Source: Peptococcaceae bacterium (lineage in GTDB: Bacteria; Bacillota; Desulfotomaculia; Desulfotomaculales; Pelotomaculaceae). From it: 64,000 nucleotides of DNA. Made by a program: the position numbers and the translations under genes. The DNA lies in assembly GCA_012518875.1 (NCBI GenBank), contig JAAYRI010000087.1:27947-91946 (forward strand), read 5' to 3'. Below the pieces are notes generated by a model, which worked only from the letters and a program-made list of their open reading frames with translations, made no database searches and was not told the DNA's origin. Below, piece after piece: positions 7,125 to 12,780 of this stretch. The stretch's first letter is position 1; the number at the start of each line of letters is the position of its first letter.

Positions 7125-8060
7125 TTGGTTAGAAAACCTGCTGCCCTTGAACAGGGGGCAACCCTGGGAATAATTTCTCCGGCAAGTCCGGCCCACGACC
7201 TGGAGCATTTATCAGCGGGGATAACAGTTGTTGAAAAACTTGGTTTCAAGGTTTCCCTGAGTAAAAACGTACTGGGCTATAATAAATACCTGGCCGGGAC
7301 GGAAAAAGAGCGCCTGGAGGACTTACACAGGGCATTTCTTGATCCGGCTATAAAGGGCATTATATGTCTACGTGGCGGCTATGGTAGTATGAGGCTGCTG
7401 TCCGGCATCAACTACCGTATTGTACGCCGCAACCCCAAAATATTCATCGGCTACAGTGATATAACCGCGCTACAGTTGGCCCTTTGGAAAAAAACCGGTC
7501 TGGTAACCTTTTCCGGCCCCATGCTTACAGCTGATCTGGGAAATGAGCCCAGTGCACTAACCCTTAAACATTTTTATAATGCGCTAACAGAAAGGCACCC
7601 TGTTGGCGCTATCCCCTGTGCACCCAATGCCCAAAAGACTGTGCTAGCCCCCGGTCGGGCCCGCGGACGCCTGCTTGGAGGTAACCTGACTATGGTTGCC
7701 GCTACCCTTGGCACCCCTTACGAAATAGACACCAGGGGCGCTATTCTATTCCTCGAGGATATTGATGAACAGCCCTATCGGGTCGACCGCATGCTCCAAC
7801 AACTGCATCTGGCCGGCAAACTTGACCGGTCCGCCGGGATAGTTTTTGGTGAATTTGTTAACTGTGAAGCTGATGATAAAAATAGCTCCCTAACCTTGCT
7901 GGAGGTTATTCAGGCGGCTGTTGCCAATCTAGGTGTTCCGTCCTTCTATGGACTTTGCGCCGGCCATGGTGCCCACAAGGTAACCCTTCCTTTGGGGGTC
8001 CAGGCAGAAATAAATGCAGATGAATGCCTGTTGGAAATTATCGAACCGGCCACTATTTGA
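7125..8060 (+). CDS. LD-carboxypeptidase (muramoyltetrapeptide carboxypeptidase, S66 family)
   Basis: LGIISPASPA...CLRGGYGSMRLL...KIFIGYSDITALQLAL...TFSGPM S66 motifs; TTG start. Confidence 0.9.
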   Translation: MVRKPAALEQGATLGIISPASPAHDLEHLSAGITVVEKLGFKVSLSKNVLGYNKYLAGTEKERLEDLHRAFLDPAIKGIICLRGGYGSMRLLSGINYRIVRRNPKIFIGYSDITALQLALWKKTGLVTFSGPMLTADLGNEPSALTLKHFYNALTERHPVGAIPCAPNAQKTVLAPGRARGRLLGGNLTMVAATLGTPYEIDTRGAILFLEDIDEQPYRVDRMLQQLHLAGKLDRSAGIVFGEFVNCEADDKNSSLTLLEVIQAAVANLGVPSFYGLCAGHGAHKVTLPLGVQAEINADECLLEIIEPATI

Positions 8061-8145
8061 ACAATAAATAAATATTATAGACTGATAAAGATAACTTTTG
8101 GTTACATTTCTGGTTCTATTATGATAAAATATAGTTCAGTTGATT

Positions 8146-8205
8146 GAGAATTTAATATTGTGAGGTTAGTTGAGTTAGAGATGAGCTTAGGTAAGATTGG
8201 TTGAG
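8146..8205 (+). promoter_or_regulatory. Candidate TRAP-like RNA-binding site: regularly spaced NAG triplets in the iorA leader
   Basis: GAG 8162, TAG 8167, GAG 8172, GAG 8178, GAG 8183, TAG 8188, AAG 8193, with spacers 2,2,3,2,2,2 nt; further GAG at 8146 and 8203. Confidence 0.5.
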
Positions 8206-8223
8206 GTGTTTTTTTGTTTTTTT

Positions 8224-8248
8224 AAAACTGGGCTCCGCCCGGTTTTTT
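8224..8248 (+). terminator. Intrinsic terminator in iorA leader (candidate attenuator)
   Basis: AAAACTGGGC-TCC-GCCCGGTTTTTT; 7-bp stem, 3-nt loop, T-run; upstream of iorA. Confidence 0.8.
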
Positions 8249-8349
8249 ACCTTTTTGGAGACTTTTGAGGCCCTTTGCCCAGAAAGTCACCAGGTAGTAG
8301 GGTTACATGCACATCTATAGCAAAATTTAAATCAATTGGGGGTTTAAAT

Positions 8350-10146
8350 TTGGTTGTCAAACTATTAATGGGAAACGAAGCCATTGCCCATGGCGCAGTG
8401 GAAGCCGGTGTAAAGGTTGCCGCTGCTTATCCGGGTACCCCATCATCGGAAATTTTGGAGACCCTGGCGACTATGGCTAGGGAACATGGTTTTTACACAG
8501 AGTGGTCTGTTAACGAAAAGGCAGCCCTGGAAACTGCCATTGGCGCCTCCTTTGCAGGCGCCCGTTCCCTGGCAGCCATGAAGCAGGTTGGACTCAATGT
8601 GGCTGCCGACCCTTTGATGAGCCTGGCCTACATCGGCATTAAGGGGGGCCTGGTACTGGTGGTGGCCGATGACCCCGGCCCCCACAGTTCACAAACCGAA
8701 CAGGATACACGCAAGTTTGCCCAATTTGCCAAACTACCGGTACTTGATCCGGTTAATCCTGCCGAAGCCAGGGAAATGGCAAAATATGCCTTTGAGCTAT
8801 CGGAACAACTACTGCTGCCGGTCATTCTCCGGCCAACAACGCGTACCTGTCACGCCTGCCAGGATATCGATTTACCCGCAGGCATAGGAAAAAACCCCCC
8901 ACCGGCTGGTTTTGAGAAAGACCCTAATTGGGTTATTTTCCCCAGCTTATCCGCCCGCAAGCATATCTGGCTCAACAAACAGCAGGAAACAGCCGGGAGC
9001 ATCCTTGGGTTATCTCCCTTCAACCGCCTGGAAATCGATCCAGGCGCTCGGGTAGGCATTGTCGCTTGTGGGTTAAGTTATAACTATGTACGGGAAGCAT
9101 TGCAACTGACCGGCTTGCAGGCTACCATCCTAAAAATAGGCACACCATATCCCCTCCCCAATGACCCGGTGCTGGAACTGTTTAAACATGTGGACCGGAT
9201 CCTGGTTATCGAGGAACAGGAGCCTGTGGTTGAAGACCAGCTCATTTCCCTGGCCTGGCAACAGGGTTTAACAGCCCCCATTTCCGGGAAACACGACCGC
9301 CTGGTAGCCAGAGAAGGGGAATTCGATGTAGACAAGGTAAAAGCAATTATTGAGAAATTTTATGGCTTGCAGGGGCAGTTAGGACAGGTAACACCCCTGC
9401 CCGAACTGCCCCTGCGGCCGCCGGTTCTTTGCGCCGGCTGTCCCCACCGGGCCTCCTTCTATATTTTTAAAAATGCCGCCCGGGGCACAGAGGCAGTGTT
9501 TACCGGAGACATCGGCTGCTATACCCTGGGGGCCATACCACCCCTTAACGCATTGGACACCTGCCTATGTATGGGAGCCGGCGTCACTATAGCTGCAGGC
9601 TTACACCGAGTTGAACCGGGCCGCAAGCAGGTAGCCTTCCTTGGAGACTCCACCTTTTTCCACTCCGGCGTTACAGGGCTAATCAACGCCGTTTATAACC
9701 GGGCTGACATCACTGTAGTCATCCTGGACAACCGCACTACCGCCATGACCGGCCACCAGCCTCACCCTGGTATAGGGAATACTGGTGCTGATGGGCATGG
9801 CACAACCGTGGATATAACCGGGTTGGCCCGGGCCTGTGGTGTTGATTTCGTACGTGAAGTAGACCCTTACGACCTGACGGCAGGGGTTAAGGCTGCCTGT
9901 GAAGCCATGAACTACAATGGCCCGGCAGTGGTAATCATGAAGCGTGAATGTACGGCCCTGGTAAAAAAGGACCGGCCCTACACCATCAGCAAGGATGACT
10001 GTATAGATTGTGGTGCCTGTGTGGAAGATTTGGGATGTCCGGCTATCGGCAGGCAGGATGGCCTGCCGGCTATAAACACCAACTGTACGGGCTGCGGCGT
10101 CTGCGCACAAATTTGCCCTGTCCAGGCCATTAGGAGGAAATTATGA
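8350..10146 (+). CDS. iorA: Indolepyruvate ferredoxin oxidoreductase, alpha subunit
   Basis: KLLMGNEAIAHGAVEAGVKVAAAYPGTPSSEILETL; TPP-binding region GDSTFFHSGVTGLINAVYN; C-terminal ferredoxin clusters CIDCGACVEDLGCP and CTGCGVCAQICP. TTG start at 8350 with GGGGG SD preferred over the ORF-track start. Confidence 0.93.
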   Translation: MVVKLLMGNEAIAHGAVEAGVKVAAAYPGTPSSEILETLATMAREHGFYTEWSVNEKAALETAIGASFAGARSLAAMKQVGLNVAADPLMSLAYIGIKGGLVLVVADDPGPHSSQTEQDTRKFAQFAKLPVLDPVNPAEAREMAKYAFELSEQLLLPVILRPTTRTCHACQDIDLPAGIGKNPPPAGFEKDPNWVIFPSLSARKHIWLNKQQETAGSILGLSPFNRLEIDPGARVGIVACGLSYNYVREALQLTGLQATILKIGTPYPLPNDPVLELFKHVDRILVIEEQEPVVEDQLISLAWQQGLTAPISGKHDRLVAREGEFDVDKVKAIIEKFYGLQGQLGQVTPLPELPLRPPVLCAGCPHRASFYIFKNAARGTEAVFTGDIGCYTLGAIPPLNALDTCLCMGAGVTIAAGLHRVEPGRKQVAFLGDSTFFHSGVTGLINAVYNRADITVVILDNRTTAMTGHQPHPGIGNTGADGHGTTVDITGLARACGVDFVREVDPYDLTAGVKAACEAMNYNGPAVVIMKRECTALVKKDRPYTISKDDCIDCGACVEDLGCPAIGRQDGLPAINTNCTGCGVCAQICPVQAIRRKL

Positions 10147-10733
10147 AATCTGACATTGTAATCAGTGGGGTAGGCGGACAGGGTTCCATACTGGCTTCCC
10201 GGGCCCTGGCCGGGGCTGCAATAGCAAAGGGGCTGCATGTACTGACCTCCGAGGTGATTGGCATGGCCCAGCGGGAAGGGCCGGTGACCAGCCATATCAG
10301 GATTGGGAACAATCTATCCGGTGCTTTAATCCCGGACTATACAGCCGATTATTTGATTAGTCTGGAACTTTCTGAAACCGTACGCAACCTCAGCAAACTA
10401 AGGCCGGGGGGTACAGTGATTACCAGCAAAACAGCGATTATACCGACCTCAGTTCAGCTGGGTCTCTCTAAATATGATCAAGAAATATATGTACAGTACA
10501 TCAAAGAGCAGACTGAAAAGGCAATTTTCCTTGATCTGGAGAGCCTGTCTCTCCAGGCAGGTAACCCCCGGGCCGGCAATGTGGTGATCATGGGAGCCTT
10601 TTCTACATGCCCGGGGCTGCCGCTGCAGGGGGAACAAATTTTACAGGCAATTTTGCAGTTAGTCCCCGAAAGGTACAGAAACATCAATACCCACGCCTTT
10701 GAACTAGGGCGTCAGGCTATGGAGGAATTTTAA
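10143..10733 (+). CDS. iorB: Indolepyruvate oxidoreductase, beta subunit
   Basis: SDIVISGVGGQGSILASRALAGAAIAKGLHVLTSEVIGMAQREGPVTSHIRIG; overlaps iorA end. Confidence 0.92.
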   Translation: MKSDIVISGVGGQGSILASRALAGAAIAKGLHVLTSEVIGMAQREGPVTSHIRIGNNLSGALIPDYTADYLISLELSETVRNLSKLRPGGTVITSKTAIIPTSVQLGLSKYDQEIYVQYIKEQTEKAIFLDLESLSLQAGNPRAGNVVIMGAFSTCPGLPLQGEQILQAILQLVPERYRNINTHAFELGRQAMEEF

Positions 10734-10734
10734 A

Positions 10735-12012
10735 ATGTCATTAGCAGCGAAAAAAGAATGCGCAAGTCTGGAACAAGTCTTCTCTTATCAGGAAAGAAAG
10801 CTGCAGGAACTGGTTCCCCGCCTCTACGCAAATTCTCCTTTTTACCGCCGGAAACTGGATCAGGCCGGCATTGATCCCCGCAGCGTTAAGACCTGGACGG
10901 ACCTGAGCCGGCTGCCCTTCACCACCAAAGAAGAACTACGGATTGGCTACCCCCTGGGATTAATGGCAGTTCCGGAGGAACAGATCGTTAGAATTCACTC
11001 CTCATCGGGCACCACAGGCAAGCCGATAGTTGTGCCCTATACCGCCGGGGACGTAGCCACCTGGGCCGAAATGATGGCTCGCTGTATGGCTATGACCGGT
11101 GTAACAAACAGGGATCGGGTCCAGGTAACCCCTGGTTACGGCCTGTGGACTGCGGGTATCGGCTTTCAGGCTGGTGTGGAGCGGCTTGGTGCTATGGCTA
11201 TCCCCACCGGCCCGGGCAATACGGAAAAGCAGATGGAAATGATGTGCGACCTGAAAACAACTGTTCTCTGTTCTACGTCCTCCTATGCGCTGCTGATCGC
11301 TGAAGAAATACATAAACGAGGCCTGTTAAATCAAATCAAACTGCGCCTGGGCATTATCGGCTCGGAACGCTGGGGAGAGAAAATGCGGGCCAGGATAGAA
11401 GAATTGCTGGGTATCGAAACCTTTGATATTTACGGACTGACTGAAATATACGGTCCCGGCACTTCAATCGATTGCCCTTTGCACTATGGTCTCCATTACT
11501 GGTACGAACACCTGTTGTTTGAAATAATAGACCCTGTTTCCGGCCGGCAGCTGCCCCCCGGGCAGGAAGGTGAACTAGTGGTAACAACGCTGACCAAGGA
11601 AGGCATGCCCCTGCTGCGCTACCGCACTCGTGACATCACCAGCATTATCCCGGAGATGTGTCCCTGCGGCAGCCCCTACCCCATGCACGAACGCATACTG
11701 GGGCGCACAGACGATATGATCAAAATTAAAGGCGTGAACATTTATCCGGGCCAAATTGAACATGTACTCAAAATCACCCGGGGAGCCGGCAGTGAATACC
11801 AGATTATTGTTACCAGAAAACAGGGCAAGGACAGCATCCTGGTCAAGGTGGAATGTCTGGAAGGAGCCCCCATCGAACATGTGGCCGGGCAACTGCGCAA
11901 GAATATAAAAACCCGCATCGGCATTTTGACGGAAACAGAGGCTGTCCCTCCCGGCACCCTGCCCCGCAGTGAGAAAAAAAGCAAGCGGGTCTTCGACTAT
12001 AGAAACCTGTAA
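10735..12012 (+). CDS. paaK: Phenylacetate-CoA ligase family (arylacetate-CoA ligase)
   Basis: IHSSSGTTGKPIVVPYTAGD AMP-binding motif; YGLTEIYGPG; LGRTDDMIKIKGVNIYPGQIE PaaK C-terminus. Confidence 0.92.
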   Translation: MSLAAKKECASLEQVFSYQERKLQELVPRLYANSPFYRRKLDQAGIDPRSVKTWTDLSRLPFTTKEELRIGYPLGLMAVPEEQIVRIHSSSGTTGKPIVVPYTAGDVATWAEMMARCMAMTGVTNRDRVQVTPGYGLWTAGIGFQAGVERLGAMAIPTGPGNTEKQMEMMCDLKTTVLCSTSSYALLIAEEIHKRGLLNQIKLRLGIIGSERWGEKMRARIEELLGIETFDIYGLTEIYGPGTSIDCPLHYGLHYWYEHLLFEIIDPVSGRQLPPGQEGELVVTTLTKEGMPLLRYRTRDITSIIPEMCPCGSPYPMHERILGRTDDMIKIKGVNIYPGQIEHVLKITRGAGSEYQIIVTRKQGKDSILVKVECLEGAPIEHVAGQLRKNIKTRIGILTETEAVPPGTLPRSEKKSKRVFDYRNL

Positions 12013-12267: not shown

Positions 12268-12780
12268 ATGAAATATCCCTTGCTCCATGATAAAAACCGT
12301 GAATACCTGATATCTTTATTAGAGGACATGGCTAAAAGATGGCTGGCCCACGACGGGTTATGGTTTCAGGCCGTTGAAAGAGAACTGGGCATGGAACAGG
12401 CCATCAAAATAGATGCGGCGGCCTGGGAAAAATTCACGCAGATTGAGGCCCAAAGAATCAAATCACTGCTCCAACTGCCTGATAACGGTGGTCTGGCGGC
12501 GTTAAAATTAGCCCTGGGACTGCGCCTTTATGCCTTTGTGAACGAACAGGAAATTATTGACACAGACGAAAATAAAATAATTTTCAGAATGAACGATTGT
12601 CGGGTGCAATCAGCGCGGAGAAGAAAGGGTTTGCCTGATTTCCCCTGTAAAAGTGTGGGGATAGTGGAATACTCTTTTTTTGCCAAAACAATTGACCCCC
12701 GGATAAAAACCAGGTGTCTGACCTGTCCCCCCGATGAACATCCGGATGAGTATTTCTGCGCCTGGGAGTTCCGGATTTAA
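12268..12780 (+). CDS. Conserved hypothetical protein, DUF6125-like
   Basis: 170-aa ORF with SD AAGGAGGG; Cys-containing C-terminus RCLTCPPDEHPDEYFCAWEF; family call is from memory. Confidence 0.55.
   Translation: MKYPLLHDKNREYLISLLEDMAKRWLAHDGLWFQAVERELGMEQAIKIDAAAWEKFTQIEAQRIKSLLQLPDNGGLAALKLALGLRLYAFVNEQEIIDTDENKIIFRMNDCRVQSARRRKGLPDFPCKSVGIVEYSFFAKTIDPRIKTRCLTCPPDEHPDEYFCAWEFRI

Follow-up and report, generated by a model that had tools for sequence, protein, structure and literature searches.

A predicted TRAP attenuator before the iorA-iorB-paaK operon of a Peptococcaceae bacterium and its relatives

We analyzed a 64,000-nt stretch of one contig (JAAYRI010000087.1, assembly GCA_012518875.1) from a Peptococcaceae bacterium, referred to below as the window, in which the genes for the two subunits of an indolepyruvate:ferredoxin oxidoreductase (IOR) are followed by a gene for a paaK-like ligase (Table 1). 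The iorA gene probably starts at a TTG codon, the longest open reading frame beginning at 8275, and the space that separates it from a peptidase S66 gene (ending at 8060) holds a promoter-like site, a run of NAG triplets, a U-rich tract and a terminator. Since sites of this kind occur at about chance frequency in the consensus scan, the promoter is given as a prediction only. Downstream of paaK, a DUF6125 protein (PF19620) is encoded at 12268-12780; its gene adjoins paaK in the relative G018 as well and is possibly a member of the operon. The closest named relative is Candidatus Syntrophopropionicum ammoniitolerans (93% IorA identity; Peptococcaceae according to NCBI).

Table 1. Features of the leader and operon in the window, with related arrays elsewhere in the last line
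Feature	Position	Strand	Basis
Sigma-70-like promoter GTTACA-18-TAAAAT, TG before -10	8101..8130	+	Consensus scan, 9/12 matches; predicted
TRAP-type array GAG UAG GAG GAG GAG UAG AAG (7 NAG triplets)	8162..8195	+	Sequence; kept in orthologous leaders
Possible antiterminator 5' arm GAGCUUAG	8183..8190	+	Partner 8228-8235; 8 bp, no statistical support beyond NAG arrays generally
Probable in-register array continuation, UGG (degenerate) and GAG	8198..8205	+	Sequence; relative G020 reads UAG-GAG there
U-rich tract, array to terminator	8206..8223	+	Sequence
Intrinsic-terminator-like hairpin AAAACUGGGC-UCC-GCCCGGUUUU, then U	8224..8246	+	Conserved position in leaders
iorA, indolepyruvate:ferredoxin oxidoreductase alpha subunit	8350..10146	+	TIGR03336, 799.9 bits (cut-off 650.9)
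iorB, beta subunit	10143..10733	+	Best matches IOR beta models NF004917 and TIGR03334, below equivalog cut-offs; PF01558 above cut-off
paaK-like aryl-acid-CoA ligase	10735..12012	+	TIGR02155, 423.7 bits, below 646.3 cut-off; PF14535 and PF00501 above cut-off
Arrays at a distant trpB homolog	L210:1251-1302 (own genome, contig C70); L201, L202, L203, L204, L205, L209, L211		

The tryptophan-binding regulator TRAP (MtrB) is a textbook case, studied almost wholly in Bacillus, and its targets are genes of tryptophan synthesis and transport. In the window, the triplets start at 8162, 8167, 8172, 8178, 8183, 8188 and 8193 with spacers of 2, 2, 3, 2, 2 and 2 nt, base for base as the preliminary description had given them. 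Past the last of these, the register continues as AAG-at-UGG-tt-GAG, so that a degenerate eighth triplet (UGG, 8198-8200), which is UAG in the same-genus relative G020, is followed by a ninth (GAG, 8203-8205). We scored chains of triplets by rewarding GAG and UAG, tolerating AAG and CAG and favoring 2-3-nt spacers, whereupon the array scored 6.6, against 4.0 for the next-best chain in the real window. Dinucleotide shuffling of the window, repeated 100 times and scored on both strands (12.8 Mb), produced no chain as high as 6.6, and among 20,000 shuffled versions of the intergenic region (292 nt) one did so. Rfam covariance models gave only a sub-threshold snoRNA match within 8000-8400 (E = 0.87), and a tryptophan T-box or other riboswitch was rejected for lack of an Rfam match.

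The preliminary description had named mtrB as the gene to look for in this genome and its relatives, and it is present in both. The host genome encodes MtrB (PF02081, E = 4.7e-40; the same gene on two contigs), as do 24 of the 25 family genomes, while among 14 control genomes only that of Bacillus subtilis does so. All PDB matches of the protein were to MtrB/TRAP, and the block FHHSEK...AQFTEHT-A-K-RG of solved TRAP structures (AQFTEHTSAIK-RG in the host protein) is conserved in 30 sequences. Among the genomes tested, every carrier of an array at the iorA operon also has mtrB, and the leader array was found in 0 of the 7 genomes that lack the gene.

We then compared leaders across the order. 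Among 113 of its genomes, 38 contained a close iorA ortholog (E <= 1e-200), and in 32 of these, from seven families, the orthologous operon was preceded by an array of 6-13 triplets. Within the family, the array was found upstream in all 12 genomes with a close ortholog (68-100% identity); outside it, the array lay 3.0-3.4 kb upstream or directly before iorA in 20 of 26, a count that includes one marginal leader (L268, score 4.6). Six of the 38 orthologs had no array, three of them on contigs that end early. Scans of the opposite strand in the 26 non-family genomes gave no scoring array (0/26). Arrays were also absent from leaders of iorA paralogs (40-50% identity) encoded alongside the orthologs. 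Among the named carriers are Desulforadius tongensis, Desulfofundulus australicus and a Desulfosporosinus metagenome-assembled genome. A terminator followed within 75 nt of the array in 34 of 37 leaders, compared with 1.4% of random windows, and the trpE leaders of the family, serving as a positive control, had the same layout of array and terminator. Thus, triplet spacing and terminator alike are kept before orthologous operons across the order.

These data bear on whether the array could be no more than purine-rich intergenic sequence that by chance precedes an ordinary terminator. Single NAG triplets are common, and patterns of three matched ~600 times genome-wide, although a similar number for the reversed control makes this count uninformative. 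Since a chance origin is contradicted by the shuffles, the orthologs, the opposite-strand controls and the association with a terminator, and had already been refuted by the comparative data, we rejected it; its probability is negligible.

The position of the array relative to iorA varies within the family. It stands directly before iorA in the window, G018, G020, G023 and G014, and at a second site in G001, and lies ~3-4 kb upstream in G011, G010, G003, G002, G004, G001 and G012, where it precedes a longer operon, trpP-ecfA-ecfA'-ecfT-iorA-iorB-paaK. A gene for a TrpP-like S component (PF17099) comes first after the array in seven family genomes; outside the family, trpP was verified with Pfam in some genomes only and is elsewhere deduced from distance. 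In G001 (L064, reverse strand), one operon carries two arrays, at 13455-13396 before trpP and, with a differing sequence, at 9868-9808 directly before iorA. Second short arrays occur in L262, L263, L270 and L274 ~3.05-3.1 kb ahead of iorA, at the expected start of trpP; such arrays downstream of the attenuator array might provide dual control of transcription and translation. In L060, L061, L062, L064, L065, L066, L057 and L058, a hairpin is found ~30-50 nt before the array, with arms that vary by genus (e.g., GUGAAAGG/CCUUUCAC and UGGAAGG/CCUUCCA). Strong arrays were also seen downstream of iorA in other genomes (L097:17379-17433, 11 triplets; L104:10420-10463, 9 triplets).

With 7 strict triplets (9 with one UGG), the window array is at the low end of the range of the orthologous leaders, and at or below the 9-11 triplets given for TRAP sites (PMC4347634), while relatives reach 10-13. 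It could therefore be read as the decaying relic of a trpP-operon leader that is now too short for effective TRAP binding: most family relatives have 9-13 triplets, no TrpP was found in the host genome, G018 or G020, and the window shows no evident counterpart of the upstream hairpin of other genera. However, the array is in register in G018 (94% IorA identity) and G020 (81%), the terminator is kept too, and in G020, which has 9 triplets, the letters have changed while the spacing has not. We regard decay as very unlikely; the window leader is very probably a genuine TRAP binding site.

We next considered how termination might be brought about. The terminator, first described as spanning 8224-8248, was confirmed as a hairpin ending at 8246; in the DNA it reads AAAACTGGGC-TCC-GCCCGGTTTT, followed by a T-run, and it has 10 pairs, 5 of them G-C. 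It had further been claimed that the array can pair with the 5' arm of the terminator to form an antiterminator. This pairing exists, GAGCUUAG forming 8 pairs with CUGGGCUC, two of them G-U, but as a specific interaction it proved no stronger than controls. Its good result against plain shuffles (fraction 0.003) arises because GAG triplets pair with GCUC in general, and against shuffles that preserve the triplets, the window pairing was not better. Moreover, over 33 leaders, the array paired with its own terminator arm (mean z -0.47) no better than with arms from other clades (-0.51), so the antiterminator step is not established. A single-sequence fold of 8130-8260 was uninformative (z -0.21).

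The same TRAP site might instead act by direct termination at the U-rich tract or the terminator, with no antiterminator helix in competition. TRAP of B. subtilis can terminate transcription in vivo when just an A+U-rich segment lies downstream (PMC3913778), so an antiterminator is not essential to the claim of a TRAP attenuator. Apart from this precedent and the equality of the array-arm pairing with its controls, direct termination is favored by the U-rich tract that follows the array (mean 6.8 U in 14 nt in the leaders, compared with 3.5 in random windows) and by the minimum-energy fold of the full leader, in which the terminator is present even with the array free. Conversely, the 8-bp alternative pairing of the window is real, the strength and conservation of the terminators suggest that these are in use, and the U-tract stands out mainly in the window's family, being less marked elsewhere. 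We put direct termination at slightly under even odds. In sequence terms, the leader thus agrees with a TRAP attenuator in every test except that of the antiterminator, and both its target and its metabolic role appear to be new.

Since the Bacillus trp leader is likewise built as an array followed by a terminator, tryptophan-bound TRAP should cause termination here too. When tryptophan is plentiful, tryptophan-loaded TRAP would wrap the NAG array and transcription would stop at or before the terminator, so that no IorAB or PaaK is made; when tryptophan is scarce, TRAP would be released and the operon read. The ligase could then activate scavenged indole-3-acetate, and perhaps other aryl acids, to indoleacetyl-CoA, which IOR would reductively carboxylate to indolepyruvate, a transaminase finally yielding tryptophan. 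Such repression by the end product implies that the enzymes are most likely anabolic. The tryptophan-sensing TRAP switch on iorA-iorB-paaK that the preliminary description had proposed is supported by the presence of mtrB and the conserved spacing and terminator, and we give the reading of the leader as a TRAP attenuator exerting end-product repression on most likely anabolic enzymes a probability of almost 0.9.

Control by TRAP could also be real while IOR and PaaK serve mainly in catabolism or general aryl-acid metabolism, tryptophan merely reporting nutrient status. Ligases of the paaK type act on phenylacetate too, and the one genus in which both trpE and authentic trpB are missing has no prephenate dehydratase domain either, so that several aromatic acids may be substrates. 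In addition, IorAB is often assigned to the fermentation of aromatic amino acids (PMC5817080). Repression by the substrate amino acid would, however, be the opposite of what a catabolic operon calls for, the neighbors are a tryptophan transporter and an acid-activating ligase, and IOR homologs of Methanococcus maripaludis serve to convert aryl acids to aromatic amino acids (Porat et al., as cited in PMC4162585). A catabolic role therefore seems unlikely, and from tryptophan repression together with the transporter and the ligase we infer synthesis from indoleacetate rather than degradation.

The state of the classical tryptophan pathway is as would be expected if IOR and PaaK supply tryptophan. 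PF00425, the domain of TrpE and its relatives, was absent from the host genome, G018, G021, G022, G001-G004, G008 and G014. Authentic trpB was absent from G001-G004, G021 and G022 and in pieces in G014; in the host and G018, trpB is still present and has its own array. Given a completeness of 80% and a contamination of 5% for the host genome, the evidence that it lacks trpE comes mainly from relatives (G018, 90%; G002, 97%); completeness of 74-100% across the genomes limits single absences, and the four genomes of one genus (G001-G004) agree. No chorismate-binding enzyme, authentic trpB or prephenate dehydratase domain was found in that genus, which has nevertheless kept TRAP; its members may obtain their aromatic amino acids from aryl acids or by uptake. 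TRAP thus persists in genomes whose classical pathway is partial or lost, and the ior operon is one of its predicted sites there.

The regulon of the host genome was sampled by pattern and by gene. A ten-triplet array (L087:4145-4192, contig C226) lies upstream of a trpB-trpA-trpD-trpC-trpF-like operon without trpE, the gene order being read by inspection, and this array is also found before trpB in G018 (L190). In eight genomes, GAG arrays overlap the Shine-Dalgarno sequence and start codon of a distant trpB homolog (~460 aa), which suggests translational control by TRAP. A third KAG cluster in the host genome (C97), before an open reading frame judged phage terminase-like from its translation by eye, was taken as chance. 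For the lineage without trpE and authentic trpB, we think it somewhat more probable than not that TRAP has been kept for a transport-plus-salvage regulon, comprising trpP-ecf-iorAB-paaK and the ribosome-binding-site-overlapping site on the distant trpB homolog, as feedback on the tryptophan that reductive carboxylation of indoleacetate would yield.

Among papers available without subscription, a search of titles and abstracts yielded no report of TRAP acting on an iorA-iorB-paaK target, and no paper joining the full name of TRAP with indolepyruvate was found, in keeping with an earlier remark that this target was not known from the TRAP literature. The arrays described here extend predicted TRAP sites to an order of strict anaerobes, and the direction in which their target acts has been ambiguous. 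The logic of the switch would then be independent evidence that IOR and PaaK make tryptophan in these syntrophs and sulfate reducers, and it provides an example, open to test, of a regulator that has outlived the pathway from which it takes its name.

Several known systems resemble this arrangement in part. The M. maripaludis precedent is archaeal and without TRAP, and the corresponding route is proposed here only from operon content and regulatory logic. With the B. subtilis trpEDCFBA leader, the window shares an NAG array with 2-3-nt spacers followed by a terminator, and a genome that contains mtrB; it differs in having iorA-iorB-paaK rather than trpE as its target, in its fewer triplets and in an antiterminator without statistical support. 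The 5' stem-loop of that leader has a similarly placed counterpart in the pre-array hairpin of relatives, although none is evident in the window. The closest parallel in target is trpP (yhaG), a tryptophan transporter gene on which B. subtilis TRAP is known to act by blocking the binding of ribosomes (Yakhnin et al. 2004, as cited in PMC4347634), and trpP is first in the operon in many relatives of the host. In contrast to B. subtilis, these relatives have an attenuator before trpP, in some cases followed by another short array close to the start of that gene, and carry iorA-iorB-paaK in the same operon.
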